39,636 nt of DNA from Dysgonamonadaceae bacterium (lineage in GTDB: Bacteria > Bacteroidota > Bacteroidia > Bacteroidales > Azobacteroidaceae): contig JAIRKO010000010.1 of assembly GCA_031260045.1 (NCBI GenBank), positions 1 to 39,636 of the forward strand. The letters run 5' to 3'. Positions 8,216 to 20,695 of the stretch are shown one piece after another; within the stretch, counting starts at the first letter, position 1; the number at the start of each line of letters is the position of its first letter. The notes under the pieces are model-generated. The model saw nothing but the letters and a program-made list of their open reading frames with translations. It was not told the origin of the DNA and made no database searches. The position numbers and the translations under genes are program-made.

Positions 8216-8253
8216 CGCCTCAGTACGAATTATTATTTCAATTGAATAAAGAC

Positions 8254-8700
8254 ATGAGCAGACGCCGTTTTTTTAATACCACAGGTTCCTTGTAATCCGG
8301 AATATCATTACATGCTTCCCCCAGAAGACCGCCTTGTCGGTTCGCAGTTGCACCGTTATATAAAAGACCAGTTATACTGGGTGCTTCATGCGCCGCGACA
8401 GACAGAAAAAACTACGTTTTTGCAAAGCTGGGCGCGGGAAACGCACCTGGATGCTTTGGGAGAACGCCTCCGTGATCCGAGAATAAAATCCGTGATACAG
8501 ACGATTATTACGATACGCCCGACGCAGTCAGGGAAGAAGGACTGGAACAAATTCAGGAATATTGTGAATGTATAGACGCTTCGGCGCCCGCTTATCTGGT
8601 GATTTTCGACCGCCGTCCGAAAGCAAAAGAACTGTCGTGGGACGAAAAAATCTCGTGGACAGTCGACGAAACAAGTAATGTAACAATATTGGGATACTGA
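8254..8700 (+). pseudogene. Decayed AAA-ATPase/PD-(D/E)XK-type protein gene
   Basis: The frame from ATG 8254 gives MSRRRFFNTTG, then a one-base insertion near 8286-8290 shifts the frame. The next frame gives CNPEYHYMLPPEDRLVG and HAPRQTEKTTFLQSW. From memory of the AAA-ATPase-like family (often paired with a PDDEXK_9-type domain), the P-loop should read HAPRQTGKTTFLQ, so the Walker A glycine is replaced by Glu. At about 8437-8447 the sequence jumps to LDALGERLRDPRIKSVIQTIIT, which belongs hundreds of residues later, so most of the gene body is deleted. A second shift near 8510 leads to a C-terminal piece (EGLEQIQEY, APAYLVIFDRRPKAKE) ending at 8700. About 145 codons remain of what is normally a protein of around 500 residues. 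Confidence 0.75.
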
Positions 8701-8766
8701 TTGTTAAGAAATTAGAATTTGGGTATTCTTAATTTTATATTGGGTTTATTAAAAAATTATTTCCAT

Positions 8767-10890
8767 ATGAAAAAGTATTTATTTATTTTAGGTTTAATGT
8801 TAATGAGTTATTCTGCGTGTAAACAAAATGCAAAGTCAAATAAATTTGACAGTTCCAATCCGTTCGCTTCGGAATTTATTGATTCCCGCGGACTTCCGCC
8901 TTTCGACCTGATCAAGGCGGAACATTACCGTCCGGCATTTTTAGCCGGTATTGAACAACATGCCGCTGAAGTTGAAGCCATTGCAAATCAATCCGAAGCG
9001 CCGGATTTTGAAAATACGGTGGTTGCGCTGGACGAAAGCGGACAGTTGCTGAATCGGGTAGCCTCCGTGTTTTTTGCCATGACGAGCGCCCTTACTGACA
9101 CCGTTTTGCAGGCGATTGAAACGGAAATGTCGCCGCTGCTGACGGAACACAACGATAATATTTATTTGAACGAAAAACTATTTTCCCGCATCAAAGCCGT
9201 TTACGATGATCCGGCTTCGCACAGCCTCACTACGGAACAGAAAAGGCTGCTGGAAAAGTATTACAAAGATTTTGTCCGGTCGGGAATTGCTTTGGAAGCG
9301 TCTAAAAAGGAGCGGCTTCGGGAAATCAACAAGGAATTGGGATTGCTCAATGTCGCTTTTGGCGAAAACCTGCTTGCCGAAACAAACAATTTCCAACTAA
9401 TTATTGATAAAAAGGAAGATTTGTCGGGGCTTCCGCAAAACGAGATTGACATCGCGGGCGAAACTGCTAAGGCAAAAGGTTTGGACGGAAAATGGGTATT
9501 TACTTTGAGCAAACCGAGTTGGATGCCTTTCCTGAAATACGCCGATAACCGCGAACTGCGTGAAAACCTTTACAAAGCGATGTACAACCGCTGCAACAAC
9601 GGTAACAGCCACGACAACAAAGAGATTATTCAAAAGATTGTCAACCTGCGGCTTGAACGCGCTAATCTGTTGGGTTACAAAACGCACGCCGATTATAAAC
9701 TGGAAGAAACGATGGCAAAAACACCCGAAAACGCGCTTCGCCTGCTGTTCGATATTTGGAAACATGCTTTGCCCCAAGCCAAAAAAGAACGGGACGAATT
9801 GCAGAAACTGATTGACGGCGAAGGCGGTAAATTCAAACTCCAATCGTGGGACTGGTGGTATTACGCCGAAAAGTTGCGGCAAGAGAAATACGCTTTGAAC
9901 GAAGAGGAATTGCGTCCTTATTTCGTGCTGGAAAATGTCAGGAACGGCGCGTTTGAAGCGGCGCATAAATTATACGGCGTCTCGTTTAAGGAAATAGATA
10001 ATGTTTCGGTGTATCAAAAGGATGTGAAAGTGTTTGAAGTGAACGATTCCGACGGCTCCTACATCGGCGTTATTTATTTGGATTATTTCCCGCGTTCCGG
10101 AAAGAGAAACGGCGCATGGATGGGGAATTTTGCCGAACAAACGGTTCGCGGCGGGAAGTTTGTGCATCCGGTGGTTTACAATGTGGGTAATTTTGCTTTG
10201 CCGACGGGCGATACGCCTTCCCAGTTAGACCTTGATCAGGTGGAAACGTTGTTTCACGAATTTGGTCATGCCCTGCACGGTTTGCTTTCCCGATGCAATT
10301 ACGCAGGCATTTCAGGAACAAATGTTTACCGTGATTTTGTTGAGTTGCCCTCACAGATTAACGAGCATTGGGCGCTTCATCCCGAAGTGTTAAAAATGTA
10401 TGCCAAACATTACCAAACCGGAGCGGTAATTCCCGATTTGCTGATAGAAAAAATCAAAAAAACAGCGAATTTCAATCAAGGATTTGCGACTACGGAATTA
10501 GTTGCCGCCGCCATTCTGGATATGAAATGGCACGCCATCCAATCGCCGATAACAGTGGATGTAACGACTTTTGAAAATAACGTTTTAAACGAAATCGGAT
10601 TAATTCCCGAAATCATTGTAAGATACAAAAGTCCTTATTTCTCCCACATCTTTGACGGCGGATATTCGGCGGGATATTACAGTTATTTATGGTCGGAAGT
10701 TTTGGACGCCGACGCTTTTCAAGCCTTTGAAGAAAAGGGGATTTTCGATGCGGAAACCGCCAAATCGTTCAGGGAAAATATCCTTTCCAAAGGAGCAAGC
10801 GACGACCCAACTACGCTTTACCGCCGTTTCAGAGGCGCTGATCCCAATCCCGATTACTTGTTGAAAAACAGAGGGTTCATTAATAATTAG
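8767..10890 (+). CDS. M3 family zinc metallopeptidase lipoprotein (peptidyl-dipeptidase Dcp type)
   Basis: The 707-residue protein has a lipoprotein-like signal (MKKYLFILGLMLMSYSAC) and the M3 active-site motif HEFGH at 497-501. C-terminal M3 segments such as YAGISGTNVYRDFVELPSQ and FSHIFDGGYSAGYYSYLWSE also match. It should cleave short peptides at the cell envelope, releasing dipeptides (Dcp) or acting as an oligopeptidase. The start at 8767 is chosen because the 16 residues of the longer frame from 8719 would precede a complete signal peptide. Fifty-eight bases separate it from trpE on the same strand; shared transcription is possible but unproven. Dcp is favoured by length and the EFVDSRGLPPFD-like N-terminus. 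Confidence 0.88.
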   Translation: MKKYLFILGLMLMSYSACKQNAKSNKFDSSNPFASEFIDSRGLPPFDLIKAEHYRPAFLAGIEQHAAEVEAIANQSEAPDFENTVVALDESGQLLNRVASVFFAMTSALTDTVLQAIETEMSPLLTEHNDNIYLNEKLFSRIKAVYDDPASHSLTTEQKRLLEKYYKDFVRSGIALEASKKERLREINKELGLLNVAFGENLLAETNNFQLIIDKKEDLSGLPQNEIDIAGETAKAKGLDGKWVFTLSKPSWMPFLKYADNRELRENLYKAMYNRCNNGNSHDNKEIIQKIVNLRLERANLLGYKTHADYKLEETMAKTPENALRLLFDIWKHALPQAKKERDELQKLIDGEGGKFKLQSWDWWYYAEKLRQEKYALNEEELRPYFVLENVRNGAFEAAHKLYGVSFKEIDNVSVYQKDVKVFEVNDSDGSYIGVIYLDYFPRSGKRNGAWMGNFAEQTVRGGKFVHPVVYNVGNFALPTGDTPSQLDLDQVETLFHEFGHALHGLLSRCNYAGISGTNVYRDFVELPSQINEHWALHPEVLKMYAKHYQTGAVIPDLLIEKIKKTANFNQGFATTELVAAAILDMKWHAIQSPITVDVTTFENNVLNEIGLIPEIIVRYKSPYFSHIFDGGYSAGYYSYLWSEVLDADAFQAFEEKGIFDAETAKSFRENILSKGASDDPTTLYRRFRGADPNPDYLLKNRGFINN

Positions 10891-10932
10891 TTACAAGTTA
10901 CGAGTGGGTTTGCCGACTTGTAACTTGTAACT
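10889..10932. repeat. ACTTGTA-type inverted repeat in the peptidase-trpE spacer
   Basis: AGTTACAAGTTACGAGT (10889-10905) pairs with ACTTGTAACTTGTAACT (10915-10932) around a short loop. Related ACTTGTAAC/GTTAC words fill the trpE-trpG gap (12362-12395), and a similar palindrome sits at 20009-20060. No T-tract follows, so this is probably a genome-specific spacer repeat that also folds. Confidence 0.5.
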
Positions 10933-10948
10933 ATTAAAATATAAACGC

Positions 10949-12364
10949 ATGAAAATCTACCCATTATCAAAAACAGTCTTGGCAGACGTTCAAACGCCGG
11001 TCAGCATTTATTTGAAAATCAGGGATGTCTATCCCGAATCGGTGCTGCTGGAAAGTTCCGATTTTCACGGGAACGAAAACTCCGTTTCCTTTATTGGATT
11101 AAATCCGCTCGCGCGTTTCATCGCCGGAAAAGGTTTCGTTACAACGGAATATGAAGCGAATTCCACAAGCGAACCGGCAAAAAAAACGCCGATAAACGCA
11201 TCCGCACCGCTTGTTGAACAGCTAAACCGCTTTGTCCGCTCGTTTGAAATCGCCGAAGACAGGAACGAATCGTCGTTCAACGGTTTTTTCGGATACACCG
11301 CCTACGATGCCGTGAAATATTTTGAAGACGTCGAAACGGAAACCGGAAACCCCGACGCCTGCGATATTCCCGAAATGATTTACATTTTTTACCGCTACAT
11401 CATTGTCGTCAATCACTACAAAAACGAAATGACGGTTGTCGAAAACCGTCCGGATGGTGAAGAAAGCCGCATAGACGAAGTACTTGCGCTATTGAACAAC
11501 CGCAATTACGCTTCCTATAATTTTTCCGCTCGGGGCGATGAAACCTCCACCATCAGCGACGAAGCCTACAAGGCAATGGTGGGCAAGGGCATCGGGCATT
11601 GCCTGCGCGGCGACGTTTTCCAAATCGTGCTTTCCCGCTGTTTCGCGCAACCTTTTTCGGGCGATGATTTCAAGGTGTACCGCGCTTTGCGTTCCATCAA
11701 TCCATCGCCTTATTTGTTTTATTTTGATTTCGGTTCGTTCCGCATATTCGGTTCGAGTCCCGAAACCCACTGCAAAATATCGAAAGGACGCGCTTCCATT
11801 GACCCGATTGCCGGAACTTTCCGCAGAACCGGCGACGACGAAAAAGACAAAGCATTGGCGCAGGAGCTTTTGGAAGACCCGAAAGAAAATGCAGAACACG
11901 TCATGCTGGTCGATTTGGCGCGAAACGACCTCAGCCGGAACACCGAAAACGTGCATGTGGATTTTTACAAGGAAGTTCAGTTCTATTCCCATGTCATTCA
12001 CTTGGTTTCGAGGGTTACTGGCGACGTGAAAGCAGGCAGCAATACCGTCAAGGTCTATGCCGACACTTTTCCCGCCGGAACGCTTTCGGGAGCGCCAAAA
12101 GTTCGCGCGATGGAACTTATCCGCGACATCGAACCGCACAACCGCGGGGCTTACGGCGGATGCATCGGCTACATCGGACTGAACGGCGATTTGAATCAGG
12201 CAATTACCATCCGATCGTTTGTCAGCAAAAACAATATGCTGTATTACCAAGCCGGCGCAGGGATTGTCGCCCGTTCCAACGAGGAATCGGAATTGCAGGA
12301 AGTGAACAACAAATTGGGCGCTTTGAAAAAGGCGATCAATGCGGCGGAAAAAATTATTAATTAG
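10949..12364 (+). CDS. trpE: Anthranilate synthase component I
   Basis: This 471-residue protein is the chorismate-binding subunit that converts chorismate and ammonia to anthranilate, the first committed step of tryptophan synthesis. The N-terminal part carries LLESSDFHGNENSVSFIG, matching the LLES segment of tryptophan feedback binding. The C-terminal chorismate-binding domain shows GDVFQIVLSR, SPETHCKI, PIAGTFRRTGDDEKD, VDLARNDL, FPAGTLSGAPKVRAME and GAYGGCIGYIG. PabB is the main alternative but is unlikely given the Trp-binding segment and the trpG-trpD-trpC-trpF neighbours. Confidence 0.95.
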   Translation: MKIYPLSKTVLADVQTPVSIYLKIRDVYPESVLLESSDFHGNENSVSFIGLNPLARFIAGKGFVTTEYEANSTSEPAKKTPINASAPLVEQLNRFVRSFEIAEDRNESSFNGFFGYTAYDAVKYFEDVETETGNPDACDIPEMIYIFYRYIIVVNHYKNEMTVVENRPDGEESRIDEVLALLNNRNYASYNFSARGDETSTISDEAYKAMVGKGIGHCLRGDVFQIVLSRCFAQPFSGDDFKVYRALRSINPSPYLFYFDFGSFRIFGSSPETHCKISKGRASIDPIAGTFRRTGDDEKDKALAQELLEDPKENAEHVMLVDLARNDLSRNTENVHVDFYKEVQFYSHVIHLVSRVTGDVKAGSNTVKVYADTFPAGTLSGAPKVRAMELIRDIEPHNRGAYGGCIGYIGLNGDLNQAITIRSFVSKNNMLYYQAGAGIVARSNEESELQEVNNKLGALKKAINAAEKIIN

Positions 12365-12400: not shown

Positions 12401-12991
12401 ATGAAAATCCTAATTTTCGACAACTACGACTCCTTCACCTACAACCTGCTTCATTTGGTTAAAGAAACCGGTTACAGGGATGTAGAAGTTCATCGTAACG
12501 ATAAAATAAGTTTGGATGAAGTCGAACGTTTCGATAAAATCATCCTTTCGCCCGGACCGGGAATTCCTTCCGAAGCCGGACTGTTATTGCCTCTGATTAA
12601 ACGCTATGCGCCGCACAAGAGCATACTCGGCGTTTGTTTGGGGCATCAGGCGATTGCGGAAAGTTTCGGCGGCACGCTGGTCAACCTGCGGAATGTGTAT
12701 CACGGCATCGCCACGCCCGTCAATATTGTAGCGGAACACATTATTTTTAATGGGCTTCCGAAAAACATCGTCGTCGGTCGCTACCATTCGTGGATTGCCT
12801 CGCGTAGCGGGTTTCCCGAAACGTTGCAAATCACCGCCGCCGACAGCGAAGGGGAAATCATGGCTTTGCGACACAAAACATTAGATGTGCACGGCGTGCA
12901 GTTTCATCCCGAATCAATCCTGACGCCTGAAGGGAAAATGATTTTGCGGAACTTTTTAACGTGTCCGGCGCATTCGGCTTCGCCGATTTAA
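12401..12991 (+). CDS. trpG: Anthranilate synthase component II (glutamine amidotransferase)
   Basis: This 196-residue class I glutamine amidotransferase supplies ammonia to TrpE. The catalytic triad is visible: C79 in GVCLGHQ, H169 and E171 in FHPES. The oxyanion segment LSPGPGIP is at 49-56. It lies 36 bases after trpE. TrpG and PabA are often the same protein, so it may also serve folate synthesis. It is the last trp gene before the dnd insertion; after its stop, 49 bases lead to dndC. Confidence 0.95.
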   Translation: MKILIFDNYDSFTYNLLHLVKETGYRDVEVHRNDKISLDEVERFDKIILSPGPGIPSEAGLLLPLIKRYAPHKSILGVCLGHQAIAESFGGTLVNLRNVYHGIATPVNIVAEHIIFNGLPKNIVVGRYHSWIASRSGFPETLQITAADSEGEIMALRHKTLDVHGVQFHPESILTPEGKMILRNFLTCPAHSASPI

Positions 12992-13040
12992 TTGACTACG
13001 TCAAACTTTGTTTCAAAATGTCACAAAGATAAATAATCGT

Positions 13041-14396
13041 ATGATGGATTTTATTCAAAACATAGTAGATGAAATCATTGACCAATATATGTTCGCAGAT
13101 AATACTAAGCGTCCATGGATTATTGGGTTTAGCGGTGGAAAAGATTCTACTGTGATGTTGCAGTTGGTTTGGGAAGCGCTGACGCAAATAAACAATGCAA
13201 ACAAAAACTTGCACGGTTTTGTTGGTCGCGATGTATATGTTGTTTGCAATGATACAATGGTTGAAAACCCTGTAATTACCGAATATGTCTATCGTGTTTT
13301 GGATAAAATCGAAGTTGCAGCCCGCAACCAAGATTTGCCGATAAGAGTTGTCAAAACGCTACCAAGATTGGAAGATTCCCTGTGGGTAAATATGATTGGT
13401 CGTGGCTATCCCGCTCCAAACAACGCTTTTCGCTGGTGTACGGAACGACTGAAAATCAAACCGACTTCAAGATTTATCACCGAACAGATAAATGAATTTG
13501 GCGAAGCAATTATTTTGATTGGTACGCGGATGAGTGAGAGTGCAAACCGGGCAAAATCAATGAATAAACATGCAATTCGTGGTAAGCGTTTGACGAAACA
13601 CCCGATACAGCCAAATACATATATGTATGCACCAATCAGACATTTGCAATTAGAGCAAGTTTGGTATATTATCAATACAATGGAATCGCCTTGGGGTGCA
13701 AGCAATAAGGAACTGTTTCAAATTTATGCAAATGCGAGCGCTGATGACTACGAATGTCCGGTTGTTGTAACAGACACAAAGCATAAATCTTGCGGGCAAA
13801 GTCGTTTCGGTTGTTGGATGTGTACGGTTGTAAAAGAAGATAAGTCGATGGCAGCGTTAATAATTAACAATGGTTTTGAGTGGTTGAAACCTCTTTTGGA
13901 TTTTAGGGATGAAATTGTCTTAGAGCGTAATGACATCAAAAATCGTATGCCAGTTCGCAGGAATGGAACAAAGGCTGTTAATGATATGGGATCTTACTAT
14001 CCGTTTTATCGGGCTTCTATTTTAGAGAGATTGCTGAAAACACAAAAGGAAATACAAAAAGAAAAACCTCATATAGAATTGATTACCAATCAAGAACTTA
14101 TTGCCATTCAGACAATTTGGTATCGAGATTTCGTTTTTAATTATAAAGTATCGAAAATTTATCATAACGCATATAAATCCAATTTAGATATGGACGAGCA
14201 TAATAAGAAAAAAGACAAAGAATTAGAATTGTTGAAAAATTCTTGCAAAAACAAACCGCAAAATTTTGACCTAATTCAAGAACTTTTGACCCTGCAAAGG
14301 AACAAATCGCTTTTAAATAGAAAAAGAGGGTTAAAAGATGATATTGAAACTCGCATTGAGGAATACTTAAAAAAAGAACAGGCAAATGCTGATTAA
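13041..14396 (+). CDS. dndC: DNA phosphorothioation sulfurtransferase DndC
   Basis: The 451-residue product is a PAPS-reductase-like PP-loop protein: the nucleotide-binding SGGKDS motif is at 31-36. Cysteines C133, C239, C251, C258 and C261 (CGQSRFGCWMC) fit the Fe-S site of DndC. In the Dnd system DndC activates the DNA backbone with ATP so that a non-bridging oxygen is replaced by sulfur. The ATG at 13041 (followed directly by another ATG) is preferred over a TTG at 13008. The gene is AT-rich compared with trpG and trpD, and its end overlaps dndD by 11 bases. Sulfate-reduction enzymes (CysH/CysD) are less likely because of the dndD and dndE partners. Confidence 0.9.
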   Translation: MMDFIQNIVDEIIDQYMFADNTKRPWIIGFSGGKDSTVMLQLVWEALTQINNANKNLHGFVGRDVYVVCNDTMVENPVITEYVYRVLDKIEVAARNQDLPIRVVKTLPRLEDSLWVNMIGRGYPAPNNAFRWCTERLKIKPTSRFITEQINEFGEAIILIGTRMSESANRAKSMNKHAIRGKRLTKHPIQPNTYMYAPIRHLQLEQVWYIINTMESPWGASNKELFQIYANASADDYECPVVVTDTKHKSCGQSRFGCWMCTVVKEDKSMAALIINNGFEWLKPLLDFRDEIVLERNDIKNRMPVRRNGTKAVNDMGSYYPFYRASILERLLKTQKEIQKEKPHIELITNQELIAIQTIWYRDFVFNYKVSKIYHNAYKSNLDMDEHNKKKDKELELLKNSCKNKPQNFDLIQELLTLQRNKSLLNRKRGLKDDIETRIEEYLKKEQANAD

Positions 14397-16503
14397 AGAG
14401 ATAACATTAAACAATTTCCGGATTTACAAAGGAAACAATGCGATTAACCTGCTGCCCGACAGTGAAAAGAATATTGTTGTGGTAAGCGGCAAAAATGGTT
14501 TTGGTAAAACGACATTTTTAATGTCGTTGGTATGGTGTTTGTATGGTCGGCAAATGGACAAAGTAGATGAATTGTATCAAAAAGAAATAGCGGACAAAGG
14601 TGGTTATGGTAAATATATCGGAAATACGCTAAACCGATTAGCGAAAAACGAAGGCAAAACAAAATTTTCTGTTTCAGTTACTTTTAAGGATGTAAAAATA
14701 CCCGAAATATCTTGCAATGAGGTAAAAATCACCCGGACATTTGACACAATAACGAGTACAAATGATAAAGTCGAAGTATTGATTGACGGTTTTCAAAATC
14801 AATTAATTCAGGATTTGACAACTGAAGGCAAACAGGACGGTGAAGAGATTTTTATACGCAATTTCATTTTGCCAATTGAAATTGCAAAATTTTTCTTTTT
14901 TGATGCTGAAAAAATTGTATCACTTGCCGAAATCAACTCGCCGGAACAAAGACGTATTTTGAGTAAAGCATACACAGAAGTATTAGGAATAAAGGAATAC
15001 GAAGATTTAAAAGACCTATTAGAAAACATACAGGACGAATACCGTAAAAAATCAGCCAAACCGCAAGAGCGGACAGAGTTCAATCAAATTGAAACGGACA
15101 TAAAAAACAAACAGATTAGCATTGATGAAATAGATAGTCAGATTCAAGAGTTAAATCAGGAAAAAAATGAGAAACAAAGTGAGTCTAATGAAATTCAAAT
15201 GAAGTTAGTCAAAGAAGGTAATATGATGACTTTGGAACAACTGAATGAATTGAAATCAAATGAAAAAGTGTTAAATGATAAAATCTCTAACTTGCAAACC
15301 GATTTGAAAGATTTGTTTGATTTAATTCCATTTGGTTTGGCAGGGGAAACTTTAATGGAGGTTTCCTCACAATTGGAAAACGAAAAAAATTATAAAGACA
15401 ATAAATACAAACAAGACGATGTAAAAGAAAAAACAAGACGTATACTTGATGATATTGAAAAAGAAAAGAAACTATTTAAAGGCGTAATTGAAGTTGAAAT
15501 TAGGGATTTTTATGAAGAACAAATTAAAAAATTTATAAAAAAACATTTTTTTTCAGATGTTCCTGAATTGCCTTCTATTTTCAAACAACTACACGATTTT
15601 TCGGATACACAAACAAATGAATTAAACACATTGGTTAATCATTTGAAACACACATTTAGAGATGCTTTTACTCGATTAAATGATGGTTATTTACGCTCAA
15701 AAAATGAGATTGATTCTATCAGGCGTAAAATTAGATCAGCCGAAAAAGATGCAGAAGATGAATATATTGCAAATTTAAGATCTGCAAAAAAACGATTAGA
15801 TGACCGTATATTCAGCATAGGTAAAGATATTTATGATTTGGGTGAAAAAATTGGCGGACTAAAAAATGAAATAAAAACGCTGAAACAGCGACAAGAAGAA
15901 TTACGAAAAAAGATTGACGATTCAAGCCATTATTCTGAAAAAGAGAAGAAAACACAAGAGCTTGTAACTCAATTAAAAAATTTTATCAAAGAGTTCAAAA
16001 ACGCTACCAAAAAGAAATTGGAGGATAATATTTTGAACGAATTAAATAGTTTAATGCACAAAAAGGGATTTATCCATAAAGTTGTTGTGGATATAAACCA
16101 AGCAGGCGACGATGTTGATATAAACCTTTTTGATGTGCGAAATGAAAAAATAGATAAAGGCTCTTTATCAATGGGAGAACGTCAAATGTATGCTTCGGCT
16201 CTTTTAAAATCATTAGTTGATGAATCGGATATTGAATTTCCGGTATTCATTGATTCGCCTATGCAGAAATTCGATAAAGACCACGCCGAAAATGTAATAA
16301 AGGAGTTTTATCCAAATGTTTCAAAACAAGTGATTTTATTTCCGTTAATTCATAAAGAATTGACAGAAAGCGAATTTGAGTCATTAAAACCCTATATTAG
16401 TAAAGCATACATAATTGACAACTTCAATACGGATGCTTCTAAATTTGTAGAAACAAGTCCTGAAAATTTAATTGATAAATACAACGAATTATATGCAAAT
16501 TAA
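14386..16503 (+). CDS. dndD: DNA sulfur modification ATPase DndD (SMC/Rad50-like)
   Basis: The 705-residue product has split ABC-ATPase halves around a long coiled coil. Walker A GKNGFGKT is at 35-42, coiled-coil-rich charged sequence covers about 200-570, the signature motif LSMGERQ is at 594-600, and Walker B FPVFIDSP is at 618-625. No CxxC zinc hook is seen in the coil. DndD provides the ATPase/DNA-handling function of the phosphorothioation complex. It starts inside the end of dndC and ends inside the start of dndE (11 bases each), the tight overlap expected of co-translated subunits. Composition is strikingly AT-rich relative to the flanking trp genes, indicating acquisition from elsewhere. 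Confidence 0.9.
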   Translation: MLIKEITLNNFRIYKGNNAINLLPDSEKNIVVVSGKNGFGKTTFLMSLVWCLYGRQMDKVDELYQKEIADKGGYGKYIGNTLNRLAKNEGKTKFSVSVTFKDVKIPEISCNEVKITRTFDTITSTNDKVEVLIDGFQNQLIQDLTTEGKQDGEEIFIRNFILPIEIAKFFFFDAEKIVSLAEINSPEQRRILSKAYTEVLGIKEYEDLKDLLENIQDEYRKKSAKPQERTEFNQIETDIKNKQISIDEIDSQIQELNQEKNEKQSESNEIQMKLVKEGNMMTLEQLNELKSNEKVLNDKISNLQTDLKDLFDLIPFGLAGETLMEVSSQLENEKNYKDNKYKQDDVKEKTRRILDDIEKEKKLFKGVIEVEIRDFYEEQIKKFIKKHFFSDVPELPSIFKQLHDFSDTQTNELNTLVNHLKHTFRDAFTRLNDGYLRSKNEIDSIRRKIRSAEKDAEDEYIANLRSAKKRLDDRIFSIGKDIYDLGEKIGGLKNEIKTLKQRQEELRKKIDDSSHYSEKEKKTQELVTQLKNFIKEFKNATKKKLEDNILNELNSLMHKKGFIHKVVVDINQAGDDVDINLFDVRNEKIDKGSLSMGERQMYASALLKSLVDESDIEFPVFIDSPMQKFDKDHAENVIKEFYPNVSKQVILFPLIHKELTESEFESLKPYISKAYIIDNFNTDASKFVETSPENLIDKYNELYAN

Positions 16504-18073
16504 CATTAGAACTTCGGAAGCAAATCAGGATATTGTTCGGCAACTTACTGCCAAACTTTCCGCAGGCACAAAAGAAAATGTGATTGCGCGGATTGCTTTG
16601 GGGTATTCGTTGCAGAATGGCAAAAAGTTTTCAACATCGGAATTTAACATTTATGATTCCAAAGGAAAAGAATACAAAGACCACATACTTTTTGATGAAA
16701 AATATCGAGACTTTTATATTGCCCTGATTTGCCAGCATTATGGAATTTACAAAACAGATGACAATATACCCCGTTATATCAAATTACACATTGACCATGG
16801 TTTGTTGCTAATGGATAATCTGTTTAGGAGTAATAATAATTACACATTTTTGGATTTTCTGACCGAGCACTTAGACAAAGGAATTTCAATGTTAGACACC
16901 GTAAAAGTAAGTTTAGATGCTGTAAAAAACAACAATCAAAACATCGAAAAAACGTATTTCAGCGAGCCAATAAGGTTAGTCGTGGGCAATAAAGTAGGAT
17001 TAAATGCCGATGAAATTATTCTAAACTTCAATAATACAGTAGAATATAATAATAATCATATTGCTATTGCCGGAAGTTCAGGAACAGGAAAAACACAATT
17101 TGCATTACATTTGTTGCAAGAAATTTCCGAAAAAGCAAACCACCATGTTAATTTTATTTATTTGGATTTCAAAGGATTAAAAGACGATGATTTGGTTGAA
17201 TTTCAGCCATTTTTTGAAAAAACAAAAGCACAATTTATTAATGCTCCTAAAACGTCATTTCCTGTCAATCCGTTGTCGTTTATTGATAGTATAAACGATG
17301 TAAACAAGCAAATGGGAATTGATAAATTTGTAGATATAATTTGCAAATACTCAAATATCGGTATTAAGCAGCGTGGAAAATTACGCGAAGCAACTAATGA
17401 GGCGTTCATTGCTAAACGTCCGGGCGAATACCCAAGTTTTTCTGAAATTAACGAACAACTATTGGAAATTGTTGGAGACAAACGAGATACCTTAACTGAA
17501 ATAATTGACGAATTGAGTCGTTATAATATATTTAAAGAAGACAAAAAAACAGGTAATTTTTTGAATCAAAATATTTATTTATCTTTATCTGGGAACTTGT
17601 CAAATTCAGTTCGCTTTACTTCTCTGTTCCTGATTGTAAATTACATTTACAACGTTTTTATGAATATGGAGAGTACACCAACGGAAAACGATTGTCGTGC
17701 AATGAGATATATCCTATTGATAGATGAGGCACACGTTATTTTCAAAGAAAGGAAATATCAAGATATATTGGAAAAAATATTGCGTGAAATCCGCTCAAAA
17801 GGTGTTTCGGTTGTTTTGTTATCGCAAGGCATAGAAGAATTTAATCAACCGACTTTTGACTTTTCGAGTATGTGTGAAATGTCATTTTTGTTAGATGTTA
17901 AGGATAAAACTAATGCAAAAGCAATCAATAAGTTTTTAGGTTTCAGCGATAAAGATGGAACAAAAGCATATCGCAGTTTGGAAAAAATCCAAAAAGGACA
18001 GGCGATTTCCAATATAAAAGAATTTCCGAAAGGAGAATTATTTGAAATAAAACAGTTTTACAATAGTAAATAG
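16493..18073 (+). CDS. dndE: DndE domain fused to a HerA/FtsK-like ATPase
   Basis: The 526-residue product has two parts. Residues 1-110 resemble DndE, which is normally a stand-alone protein of about 110-130 residues that binds nicked DNA (RTSEANQDIVRQL, the IARIALGYSL helix, DFYIALICQHYG, RYIKLHIDHGLLLM). Residues about 160-526 form a P-loop ATPase of the HerA/FtsK type, with Walker A GSSGTGKT at 194-201, Walker B LLIDEAH at 408-414, and a following VVLLSQG segment at 436-442 like the sensor region of HerA helicases. ATG 16493 is preferred to TTG 16472. The fusion could drive DNA translocation during modification or recruit a restriction partner; neither is shown by sequence. Confidence is high for the two domains and moderate for their joint role. 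Confidence 0.82.
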   Translation: MQINIRTSEANQDIVRQLTAKLSAGTKENVIARIALGYSLQNGKKFSTSEFNIYDSKGKEYKDHILFDEKYRDFYIALICQHYGIYKTDDNIPRYIKLHIDHGLLLMDNLFRSNNNYTFLDFLTEHLDKGISMLDTVKVSLDAVKNNNQNIEKTYFSEPIRLVVGNKVGLNADEIILNFNNTVEYNNNHIAIAGSSGTGKTQFALHLLQEISEKANHHVNFIYLDFKGLKDDDLVEFQPFFEKTKAQFINAPKTSFPVNPLSFIDSINDVNKQMGIDKFVDIICKYSNIGIKQRGKLREATNEAFIAKRPGEYPSFSEINEQLLEIVGDKRDTLTEIIDELSRYNIFKEDKKTGNFLNQNIYLSLSGNLSNSVRFTSLFLIVNYIYNVFMNMESTPTENDCRAMRYILLIDEAHVIFKERKYQDILEKILREIRSKGVSVVLLSQGIEEFNQPTFDFSSMCEMSFLLDVKDKTNAKAINKFLGFSDKDGTKAYRSLEKIQKGQAISNIKEFPKGELFEIKQFYNSK

Positions 18074-18075
18074 TT

Positions 18076-18153
18076 ATGAAACAGCAAATTAAAAATATTC
18101 CTATCTCGGAAACGTTTAAGGTTGTTGAGAAATGCATAGATTTATACCAATAA
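18076..18153 (+). CDS. 25-codon open frame directly after dndE
   Basis: An ATG two bases after the dndE stop opens a 25-residue frame (starting MKQQIKNIPISETFKVV and ending in TAA). Composition and spacing match the dnd genes, not trpD. It may be a real small peptide, or the first codons of a further dnd-associated gene whose remainder was deleted when the cassette settled in the trp operon. I do not recognise a family. The remaining 69 bases to trpD are AT-rich and show no clear promoter. Confidence 0.3.
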   Translation: MKQQIKNIPISETFKVVEKCIDLYQ

Positions 18154-18222
18154 AAAATATTTGAGAAATATGTGTGATGTTACTTTAAGCACTATGCTAT
18201 TAATTCAATTAAAAAATAAAAA

Positions 18223-19221
18223 ATGAAAGAAATCCTCAACAGACTGTTTGAACATCAATACCTAACGCGAAGCGAAGCCAAAGAAATCCTGACCAACATG
18301 GCGGAAGGCAAGTACAACGACAGTTTGATAGCCGCCTTTATCACTGTTTATTTTATGCGAAGCATCAGCGTGGACGAAATTCTCGGCTTCCGCGAAGCGC
18401 TGTTGGAAATGCGCGTAAACGTGGACGAACTAAGGGATTACAATCCCATCGACATTGTCGGCACGGGAGGCGACGGCAAAAACACGTTCAACATTTCCAC
18501 CGCCGCATGTTTTGTAACCGCCGGCGCAGGCTACAAAGTCGTGAAACACGGCAATTTCGGGGCGACTTCGGTGAGCGGGGCGTCCAACGTGATGGAAGAA
18601 CACGGCGTGAAATTCGCCAAAGACGCGGCGGTACATAAACGGTCGTTAGACGCTGCCAACATTGCCTATTTGCACGCACCGCTTTTCAATTTGGCGTTGA
18701 AAACGGTGGCGCCGGTGCGTAAAGCCTTAGGCGTTCGCACTTTCTTCAATATTTTGGGTCCGATTGTCAATCCGTTGATGCCGAAACGGCAGGTTTTGGG
18801 CGTTTATGATTTGAAAATGGCGCGTCTCTACAACTACATTTATCAGGAAAGCGGCAATGATTTTTCGATTGTTCACAGTCTCGACGGCTACGACGAAATT
18901 TCTTTGACCGATACGTTTAAAATCATCAACAAGTCGGGCGAAAACATTTATACGCCGGATAGTCTTGGGTTTAAAAAAGCCGTTCCAGAAGAGTTATTCG
19001 GAGGCAGTACGACGGCAGACGCCGCGCGGATTTTCGACAATATTCTGAACAATCGGGCTACGGATACCCAAAAAAACGTCGTGATTGCCAATGCAGCGAT
19101 AGCAATTCAAACTATTGAACCTCAATTGGATTTGCCGGAATGTGTGGCAAAGGCAAAAGAATCTCTGGAATCGGGGAAAGCCAAATGCGCTTTGGATAAA
19201 TTCTTGGAAATCAATAATTAA
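18223..19221 (+). CDS. trpD: Anthranilate phosphoribosyltransferase
   Basis: This 332-residue enzyme transfers the phosphoribosyl group from PRPP to anthranilate, the second step of the pathway. The PRPP-binding loop GTGGDGKNTFN is at 80-90, and VKHGNFGATSVSGAS follows at about 106-120. RTFFNILGPIVNP is a further family signature. It has no amidotransferase fusion, consistent with the separate trpG. It is separated from trpG by about 5.2 kb of dnd genes; its translation is followed two bases later by trpC. Its GC-richer composition matches trpE and trpG. Confidence 0.96.
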   Translation: MKEILNRLFEHQYLTRSEAKEILTNMAEGKYNDSLIAAFITVYFMRSISVDEILGFREALLEMRVNVDELRDYNPIDIVGTGGDGKNTFNISTAACFVTAGAGYKVVKHGNFGATSVSGASNVMEEHGVKFAKDAAVHKRSLDAANIAYLHAPLFNLALKTVAPVRKALGVRTFFNILGPIVNPLMPKRQVLGVYDLKMARLYNYIYQESGNDFSIVHSLDGYDEISLTDTFKIINKSGENIYTPDSLGFKKAVPEELFGGSTTADAARIFDNILNNRATDTQKNVVIANAAIAIQTIEPQLDLPECVAKAKESLESGKAKCALDKFLEINN

Positions 19222-19223
19222 AC

Positions 19224-20027
19224 GTGGAGAATATCCTGCAAACAATCTGCGACAACAAACGCTTGGAAGTCGCCCGGCAAAAAGAAGCGGCGGCGATTTC
19301 TTTTCTTGACTACATAGCGAGCTTTCAGAAAAGGGGAAAAGTCTCTTTCCGGCAGGCGTTGGCGGCATCTGCGTCGGGCGTCATTGCGGAATTTAAGCGG
19401 CGTTCCCCCTCCAAAGGATGGATTCACGCCGACGCCGATGTAACGGGCATTGTGCAGGATTACGAGGCAGCAGGGGCAGCAGCGATTTCCTGCCTGACGG
19501 ATGAACAATTTTTCGGAGGCGGATTTAAGGACTTCAAAAAAGCGCGTGCCGCAATTAGTCGTATCCCGCTGCTGCGCAAGGATTTTATCGTAGATGAATA
19601 CCAAATTTACCAGTCCAAAATAATGGGCGCTGACGTGATTTTACTGATTGCCGCCTGTTTGACAAAGGACGAAACCGTGCGTTTCGCCGCACTCGCCCAT
19701 GAATTGGACATGGAGGTTTTGCTGGAAATTCACAGCGAGGAAGAACTGCCTTACATTCATCCGCTTATCGACGTTGTCGGCGTCAACAACCGCAACCTGA
19801 AAACCTTTGCAACCGACGTCCGGCACACCATTGAACTTGCCGCTAAAATCCCCGATACATTCCTGAAAATTTCCGAAAGCGGGCTTTCCGACCCGCAAAC
19901 GGTGGTGGATTTGCGTAAAAAAGGGTTTAGCGGTTTCCTGATGGGCGAAAATTTTATGAAAACAAATCAGCCGGGGAAAACGCTAAGCGAATTTATTGGA
20001 AAAGTAAACGAGTTAACAAGTAGATAG
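19224..20027 (+). CDS. trpC: Indole-3-glycerol phosphate synthase
   Basis: This 267-residue TIM-barrel enzyme catalyses ring closure and decarboxylation of CdRP to indole-3-glycerol phosphate. Family motifs are present: AEFKRRSPSKGWI, LRKDFIVDEYQIYQSK, VGVNNRNLKTF, KISESGL and GFLMGENFM. It begins with GTG two bases after the trpD stop, so translation is probably coupled. The phosphoribosylanthranilate isomerase activity is carried by the separate downstream trpF. Confidence 0.95.
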   Translation: MENILQTICDNKRLEVARQKEAAAISFLDYIASFQKRGKVSFRQALAASASGVIAEFKRRSPSKGWIHADADVTGIVQDYEAAGAAAISCLTDEQFFGGGFKDFKKARAAISRIPLLRKDFIVDEYQIYQSKIMGADVILLIAACLTKDETVRFAALAHELDMEVLLEIHSEEELPYIHPLIDVVGVNNRNLKTFATDVRHTIELAAKIPDTFLKISESGLSDPQTVVDLRKKGFSGFLMGENFMKTNQPGKTLSEFIGKVNELTSR

Positions 20028-20077: not shown

Positions 20078-20695
20078 ATGAAAATAAAAGTTTGCGGAAT
20101 GAAATACCCTGAAAATATCAGGGAGTTGGCGCATCTTCCCATTGACATGATGGGGTTGATTTTTTACGAAAAATCGCCTCGCTATGCGGGAAATTTGCCG
20201 GCAAGCGAACTGCGGTTTGTGCCGCCGAACATTCAAAAAGTCGGCGTTTTCGTCAATGCTTCCGCAGAGGATATTGTTGCCGTAATTCGGGAATATGATT
20301 TGCAAATCGTTCAGTTGCACGGTGATGAATCGCCCGATTTTTGCAGGGAAATAAAAAAACAGGGCATAAAAGTAATCAAGGCGTTTCCCATCGAAAAAAT
20401 TACTGATTTTGAAAAATGCAATTTGTATGAAAATGCTTGCGACTATTTTCTGTTCGATACGAAAACGTCGCAATATGGCGGTTCGGGGAAAAAATTCGAC
20501 TGGGGAATACTTGCGTTGTACAACAGCGAAACGCCTTTCATTTTGAGCGGTGGCGTCAATGTGGAAGACGCGGAATCAATCCGAAAAATACGGCATCCGA
20601 AACTGTATGGCGTTGATTTGAACAGCCGGTTTGAGACGCGGGCGGGGGAAAAAGACTTGGAAAAATTGCGGGGGTTTTGTTTGGTTTTTAGGTGA
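20078..20695 (+). CDS. trpF: Phosphoribosylanthranilate isomerase
   Basis: This 205-residue TIM-barrel enzyme isomerises PRA to CdRP. Visible motifs are KVCGMKYPENI with the catalytic Cys at 6, VQLHGDES, YFLFDTK with the catalytic Asp, GGSGKKFDW, FILSGG and GVDLNSRFET. It is the last tryptophan gene in the window. Neither trpA nor trpB is seen, so tryptophan synthase must be encoded elsewhere or be absent. It converges with the PP2C gene 33 bases on. Confidence 0.95.
   Translation: MKIKVCGMKYPENIRELAHLPIDMMGLIFYEKSPRYAGNLPASELRFVPPNIQKVGVFVNASAEDIVAVIREYDLQIVQLHGDESPDFCREIKKQGIKVIKAFPIEKITDFEKCNLYENACDYFLFDTKTSQYGGSGKKFDWGILALYNSETPFILSGGVNVEDAESIRKIRHPKLYGVDLNSRFETRAGEKDLEKLRGFCLVFR

Follow-up and report, generated by a model that had tools for sequence, protein, structure and literature searches.

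Genes for a putative DNA phosphorothioation writer, dndC, dndD and a dndE fusion, were found inside the tryptophan operon of a Dysgonamonadaceae bacterium, on a stretch of 39,636 nucleotides (contig JAIRKO010000010.1 of assembly GCA_031260045.1) that is hereafter called the window. In our opinion, with a probability of about 0.65, an intact dndC-dndD-dndEi writer was spliced into the trp operon and its partner pair was deleted, leaving a module which would be a solitary modification module because the deletion removed both downstream genes. The window lies on contig 53 of a 57-contig, 1.99 Mb assembly that is 81.6% complete (genome G000). Using open reading frames (ORFs) and profile searches, the order trpE-trpG-dndC-dndD-dndE(fusion)-trpD-trpC-trpF was established, with every gene on the + strand. 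This bears out the original prediction, made from this DNA alone, that the three dnd genes lie on one strand between trpG and trpD. The locus, with a cassette of the same-genus genome G020 used for alignment, consists of the following features.

10949..12364, + strand: trpE (TIGR00564, 430 bits, top of the listed families, below the cut-off of 517.7)
12401..12991, + strand: trpG (TIGR00566 above cut-off; the only match in G000 with an E-value of at most 1e-30)
12956..13028, + strand: left edge, the last residues of trpG and the spacer (local alignment with the G020 cassette)
13041..14396, + strand, alternative TTG start at 13008: dndC (TIGR03183, 423.9 bits, cut-off 290.4)
14386..16503, + strand: dndD, ABC-type ATPase (TIGR03185, 284.1 bits, cut-off 245.85)
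16493..18073, + strand: dndE fused to a HerA/DndH-type ATPase, DndEi (PF08870, DndH and structure matches)
18076..18153, + strand: deletion scar, an ORF of 25 residues (alignment with the G020 cassette)
18223..19221, + strand: trpD (TIGR01245 above cut-off; one match in G000)
19224..20027, + strand: trpC (NF001377 above cut-off)
20078..20695, + strand: trpF (NF002298, 173 bits, cut-off of 215 not reached; position and similarity to trpF of relatives)

Provided that ATG starts are used, the spacers at the two edges are 49 bases (12992-13040) and 149 bases (18074-18222) long, and the overlaps between dndC and dndD and between dndD and dndE are 11 bases each, as had been described earlier. With TTG starts instead, the left spacer shrinks to 16 bases and the dndD/dndE overlap grows to 32 bases. 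The trpE of the window is 88-93% identical to trpE of the relatives G020, G008 and G017.

DndC contains the PP-loop SGGKDS, and its cysteines C133, C239, C251, C258 and C261 are invariant across 17 sequences; DndD contains the Walker A motif GKNGFGKT. In the dndE fusion, the DndE domain occupies about 16505-16825 and the ATPase about 16925-18019, with a Walker A motif at about 17072-17095. The fusion passes PF08870 (73.4 bits, cut-off 25; residues 12-118 of the longest ORF), its ATPase part is nearest to the C-terminal domain of DndH/DptH (DndH, 83.1 bits by PADLOC), and structure matches were obtained with DptH (7es4_A, E 1.6e-12) and DndE (7x4e_A, E 9.7e-4). Judged by these domains, it has the DndEi architecture, i.e., a DndE domain together with an ATPase/helicase domain. 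Cysteine desulfurases (PF00266), candidates for the role of DndA, are encoded in the genome; three matches score 492, 486 and 118 bits and seven others score lower, none of them within the cassette.

The top PADLOC name for the ATPase DndD is PbeC (910.8 bits, DndD 318 bits), which likens it to the PbeABCD or CxC ABC-ATPase system described in the covered parts of PMC10853773. In contrast to PbeABCD, the ATPase of the window has cysteines only at positions 51 and 110, with no CxxC zinc hook and therefore without the CxC hook of that system, DndC is present, and no PbeA-like nuclease-helicase occurs among the scanned ORFs.

The three genes are open and well conserved. When the window was compared with 16 to 20 other sequences, it kept 156 of 156 otherwise invariant columns in DndC, 179 of 180 in DndD and 136 of 137 in DndE. 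Judged against G020, the dnd genes are under purifying selection: the Nei-Gojobori ratios of nonsynonymous to synonymous change (dN/dS) are 0.052 for dndC, 0.049 for dndD and 0.028 for dndE, and 0.06-0.11 for trpE, trpG, trpD and trpC. On the window's own branch, with changes assigned by parsimony and the locus L079 as outgroup, the ratios are 0.078, 0.119 and 0.045, respectively, and the three dnd genes together show no relaxation relative to the G020 branch (P 0.37). As far as motifs and selection allow one to judge, DndC-DndD-DndEi is an intact set of the known phosphorothioation-writer kind in a new place.

Evidence for insertion comes from a survey of trpG and trpD across 45 family genomes. 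Both genes are on one contig in 25 genomes; outside this count are 4 genomes with the two genes on different contigs, 6 with one only and 10 with neither. At 21 of the 25 junctions the trpG and trpD matches lie 8-218 bases apart, with no room for a gene, and this is the uninterrupted state that the original prediction proposed to look for in relatives. Gene-size inserts (the limit of 300 bases was chosen after the gaps were known) are present at 4 of 25 junctions, namely in the window, in G017 (opposite-strand genes for a radical SAM protein and a methyltransferase), in G020 (a UvrD-like helicase) and in G028 (a VTT-domain protein). A close copy of the cassette was found in one other of the 45 genomes, G020, where DndE is 94% identical and the cassette stands in a different place. 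Seven further family genomes gave weaker ATPase or DndE-like matches, G016 with 26% identity along most of the length. No trp match was found in the flanking DNA of any of 23 dndEi loci from named genomes. Thus, of the earlier proposal that a transferred module was inserted into the operon, the insertion stands, given the 21 empty junctions and the other place of the G020 cassette; the recent date of the transfer does not, for reasons of composition and divergence given below.

The right edge of the cassette preserves the trace of a deletion. In G020, dndEi is directly followed by a ParB-like gene of 364 residues and then by an overlapping second gene of 332 residues. The scar ORF of the window begins with an ATG and ten codons that correspond to the start of the ParB-like gene (8/10 residues); its next 12 codons correspond to the end of the second gene (12/12 residues), and the homology reaches the stop of this gene and a few bases more before it ceases. 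Relative to G020, about 1.95 kb is missing (coordinates in locus L067, which is that of G020). On the left side, the sequence is homologous to the G020 cassette from 6-12 bases upstream of the dndC ATG onwards. Because the ends of homology match the cassette edges at both sides, the incoming piece probably had the boundaries of a five-gene cassette. What remains looks, from its gene content, like an orphan writer.

The ParB-like gene and the second gene stand behind dndEi in 6 of the 23 loci (L067, L068, L070, L073, L075 and L078); at the remaining ones dndEi is followed by different co-directed genes or by none, and several of these loci stop short at a contig end. At L079, whose DndE is 91% identical to that of the window, dndEi is followed by a short piece resembling the beginning of the ParB-like gene, with nothing beyond it, which suggests a second loss of the partner genes, a weaker case than that of the window. 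The ParB-like protein gave only a weak structure match to ParB (E 0.0073) and weak Pfam matches below the cut-offs; PADLOC places PD-Lambda-5_A over its first half. A literature search on NsnA, NsnB and PD-Lambda-5 turned up nothing relevant. The second partner was considered as a nuclease and this was not borne out, its AlphaFold model being poor (pLDDT 61.8) and Foldseek giving nothing under E 0.001.

Shortened or broken cassettes were also observed. At L089 (1788-2753) a dndC-like start runs close to the end of dndE, and at L081 (7584-11317) the listed matches to dndC and dndE have none to dndD between them. L063 (about 8465-9062, genome G002, 1.2 Mb, same genus) contains fragments like the DndEi ATPase with many stops.

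The original prediction took the AT-richness of the dnd genes as a sign of recent transfer. The difference itself was confirmed: GC content is 0.367 in dndC, 0.310 in dndD and 0.321 in dndE versus 0.437-0.494 in the trp genes, and GC content at third codon positions is 0.27-0.34 versus 0.50-0.58. The conclusion drawn from it was rejected: at each of the 16 loci where composition was measured the cassette is AT-rich, and in 15 its GC content lies below that of the flanks. Synonymous distances (dS) to G020 are 0.97 for dndC, 0.75 for dndD and 0.91 for dndE, similar to 0.94 for trpE, 0.75 for trpG, 1.18 for trpD and 1.21 for trpC, although values near 1 are imprecise. The cassette has therefore diverged about as the species have, which fits its presence in a common ancestor and later relocation; separate transfers with coincidentally matching dS may be an alternative.

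At some time, the cassette seems to have spread horizontally across orders within Bacteroidota, as is supported by sequence comparison. DndE of the window is 86% identical to that of Flavobacterium macrobrachii and 69% identical to that of Dysgonomonas sp. 25, and for trpD, detected in 9 of the 15 genomes covered by this comparison, the order is the opposite (54% and 64%). In the DndE tree, Flavobacterium stands beside the clade of the window, with support (83/84) that is not strong, and Dysgonomonas stands away from it. Since slow evolution of DndE partly explains its high identity, the claim of transfer is based on the reversed order of the two genomes.

The upstream side of the operon was examined in relation to the earlier claim that phosphorothioation would come under tryptophan-responsive transcription. 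The 300 bases before trpE were read in 13 relatives, and in four of them (G008, G017, G029 and G034) a Trp-rich leader peptide (WWWR or WRWR) and a terminator of -17 to -19 kcal/mol are situated directly before trpE; the trpE of these four is 89-93% identical to that of the window. The loci with such a leader and a strong terminator upstream of trpE are L128, L129, L047 and L058. No Trp-rich leader was found in the window between 7700 and 11000, and the only terminator-like hairpin with a T run in this interval is inside a peptidase gene. This gene stops 58 bases before trpE, where the four close relatives carry leader and terminator. The features concerned are given below.

8767..10890, + strand: M3-family peptidase gene (Pfam PF01432, 455 bits; ATG start from the ORF)
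10890..10931, + strand: long hairpin in the gap between the peptidase gene and trpE, not followed by a T tract (RNA fold, -27.8 kcal/mol for 10889-10948)

A frame-broken remnant with pieces that by eye resemble an ATPase gene was noted at 8250-8700, between this peptidase gene and the gene for the ribosome recycling factor. The leader pattern was matched in 8 of the 45 family genomes, in G028 and G035 further upstream, with no exact match in G000; since the pattern misses the leader of G017, its absence is not proof. With the leader and terminator of its four close relatives absent from the window, tryptophan-responsive transcription is not supported. At L167 (G025 contig 66, about 17751-17788) the leader pattern occurs about 120 bases before trpD, and trpDCF at this locus may have its own attenuator.

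Promoters of Bacteroidota contain a -7 box with the consensus TAnnTTTG. In the window, no exact box was found in the 300 bases before trpE, in the 120 bases before dndC or in the 150 bases before trpD. An exact box precedes dndC at 8 of 19 other loci and trpD in 6 of 13 relatives, including G017 and G020 with their own inserts; the expectation from shuffling is 1-17% per stretch. A search of the window with Rfam at gathering thresholds gave nothing. Most likely, the dnd genes are transcribed solely as part of the trp message, which would run from upstream of trpE through trpF.

No traces of mobile machinery were detected. Neither integrase nor transposase domains were found among the 19 other window ORFs that were scanned (Pfam, E 1e-4), and there is no target-site duplication at the cassette edges, the longest direct repeat being 6 bases (shuffle mean 6.5), in agreement with the earlier remark that no integrase or att site is seen. 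Among 72,556 plasmid and 50,697 phage records no match covers 80% of DndEi; 13 plasmid and 3 phage records gave partial matches, and no relative was found in the viral contigs searched. Restriction partners were sought as well. SspE carries the GmrSD_N (DUF262) domain; this domain (PF03235) was not found in G000, which is 81.6% complete, and the control was positive in 8 of 14 cases. TIGR03238 (dnd_assoc_3), which we take to be dndF, has no match in G000, with control genomes empty likewise.

The following sequence of events may be proposed. The writer would have arrived as a cassette of five genes, dndC, dndD, dndEi, the ParB-like gene and the second partner gene, and a deletion of about 1.95 kb would then have removed the last two, leaving the 25-residue scar ORF; the lost pair may have been the restriction half. 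A cysteine desulfurase encoded elsewhere would load sulfur onto DndC, DndD and the DndE domain would search along the DNA for a short motif, the HerA-type ATPase of the fusion would open or translocate the DNA, and DndC would insert sulfur into the DNA backbone. DndEi is reportedly active as a helicase. In the absence of a restriction partner, the mark would probably serve as an epigenetic or protective tag and not for self/non-self immunity.

Several points weigh against this interpretation. DndE remains below the TIGR03184 cut-off (39.4 versus 71.85). Taken alone, dndD has a mild surplus of amino-acid replacements on the branch of the window (39:78 versus 21:82, P 0.035, uncorrected with three genes tested), which could be early decay. 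The leader is absent within 300 bases of trpE in 9 of the 13 relatives, G020 included, and the weight of its absence from the window is reduced because most relatives examined lack a leader directly before trpE. The promoter boxes are weak evidence, 11 of the 19 other dndC loci being also without a box, and four start positions in the comparison are approximate. No domain could be identified in the second partner gene by Pfam or PDB profile searches, which gave nothing usable, and its restriction role is a guess. Homologues of the two partner genes were not found in G000, in a search of an 81.6% complete genome run without a positive control. In an assembly of 57 contigs at this completeness, partner genes may be on missing DNA and a misjoin is possible.

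Among the other explanations, it is unlikely that the cassette is a decaying relic without partners, retained only because a stop or a deletion within it could have polar effects on trpDCF. The deletion scar, the mild excess of replacement changes in dndD and the suggestive ParB-like remnant at L079, by which partner loss may be a repeated event, are compatible with decay, but all three dnd genes are open with nearly all invariant residues kept, overall dN/dS on the window branch is low, and solitary dndCDEi sets with no co-directed gene directly behind them also exist at L077, L086 and L087. Slightly less credence is due to the view of the original prediction that the cassette was acquired recently as a defence module and is controlled by tryptophan. 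Its AT-richness relative to the operon, its patchy distribution (2 of 45 family genomes with a close match over the full length) and the cross-order similarity of DndE would agree with this, whereas the dS to G020 equal to that of the trp genes, the low GC content in 16/16 loci, the absence of the leader and attenuator of four close relatives and the deletion of the partner genes argue to the contrary. As it stands, a defence role is doubtful, since both downstream partners are deleted and the searches of the 81.6% complete G000 found no homologues of them and no GmrSD_N domain of the SspE type.

It is very improbable that the trpG-dnd-trpD junction is a misassembly of the metagenome bin. The bin is fragmented, and the same junction was not found in the related genomes or named loci searched. 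On the other hand, trpG, trpD and dndEi are each present in one copy in G000, which argues against a chimeric assembly; the cassette is as distant from G020 as the trp genes are, as expected for DNA of one species, and its edges coincide with gene ends. An intact writer captured by the trp operon and deprived of its partners is the interpretation preferred here.

If correct, it provides a natural example of a backbone-modifying gene set within a housekeeping operon whose downstream partners have been lost, and a test case for the use of phosphorothioate marks outside restriction. Known systems resemble it in part. A 'rare dndEi' is mentioned for several Bacteroidales strains in the covered parts of PMC7464106. 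The DndEi cluster of Bacteroidota shares with the window dndC, dndD and a dndE with an extra helicase-like domain, a likeness seen at the level of architecture; the set of the window differs in its place inside trpEG-DCF and in the deletion of the downstream pair. Rakesh, Aravind and Krishnan (2024, PMC10853773), in the parts covered, describe Dnd modification modules as a core of ABC ATPase and DndE with DndC, with variable linked nucleases and DndFGH often absent, and the variation of partners between loci is similar to that among the 23 dndEi loci; the term 'DndEi' does not occur in that text, and in the same parts neither a DndE-HerA fusion nor a trp location was met. A literature search, with most subscription journals outside its coverage, gave no paper linking dndC to trpD or phage-defence insertion to the trp operon.

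Defence hotspots between core genes are known, for example, the defence islands of E. coli. The trp locus is similar to them in that related genomes carry different defence genes at one chromosomal site; it differs in its position inside a biosynthetic operon, in the lack of an integrase domain among the window ORFs scanned and in an insert frequency not significantly above that of a control operon. In G001, of the same genus, trpD and trpC are separated by NsnA, NsnB and NsnC (PADLOC E 1.5e-122, 2.1e-110 and 1.4e-114), which share the strand of the trp genes and leave gaps of just a few bases to either neighbour (L135, contig 309, 2362-5374). This suggests that biosynthetic operons can capture defence genes without mobile machinery. 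In G029 (L129, 1-2944), two DNA methyltransferase ORFs are convergent to trpG, past an unknown protein of 375 residues and near the contig end, and in G034 two acyl-group enzymes lie between trpG and a type IIG restriction-methyltransferase gene about 2.7 kb away from it.

It is tentatively conceivable, and in our opinion rather doubtful, that in this genus biosynthetic operons, trp above all, repeatedly capture whole anti-phage or DNA-modifying sets without an integrase, that the captured defence or epigenetic genes are thereby carried on the transcripts of amino-acid operons, and that some of these sets, as in the window, lose the restriction half and persist as solitary epigenetic writers. 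If true, such capture would change where defence genes are sought and how the control of their expression is viewed. The his operon served as the control: 33 hisD loci were found, 26 of them with hisG too, and the 7 with no hisG upstream were excluded (in G040, hisD is at a contig end). The hisG-hisD junction is interrupted in 2 of 26 cases, by a GNAT acetyltransferase in G006 and by a 235-residue unknown protein and a methyltransferase in G043; judged by domain names, these inserts are not defence systems. The frequencies of gene-size inserts, 4/25 for trp and 2/26 for his, are not significantly different (P 0.42), and a trp-specific hotspot was not established. Because the two rates do not differ significantly, operon interruption may be general in the family. 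In G043 (L184, 5269-5898), a gene with a Bro-N domain was also observed between hisD and the next his gene.

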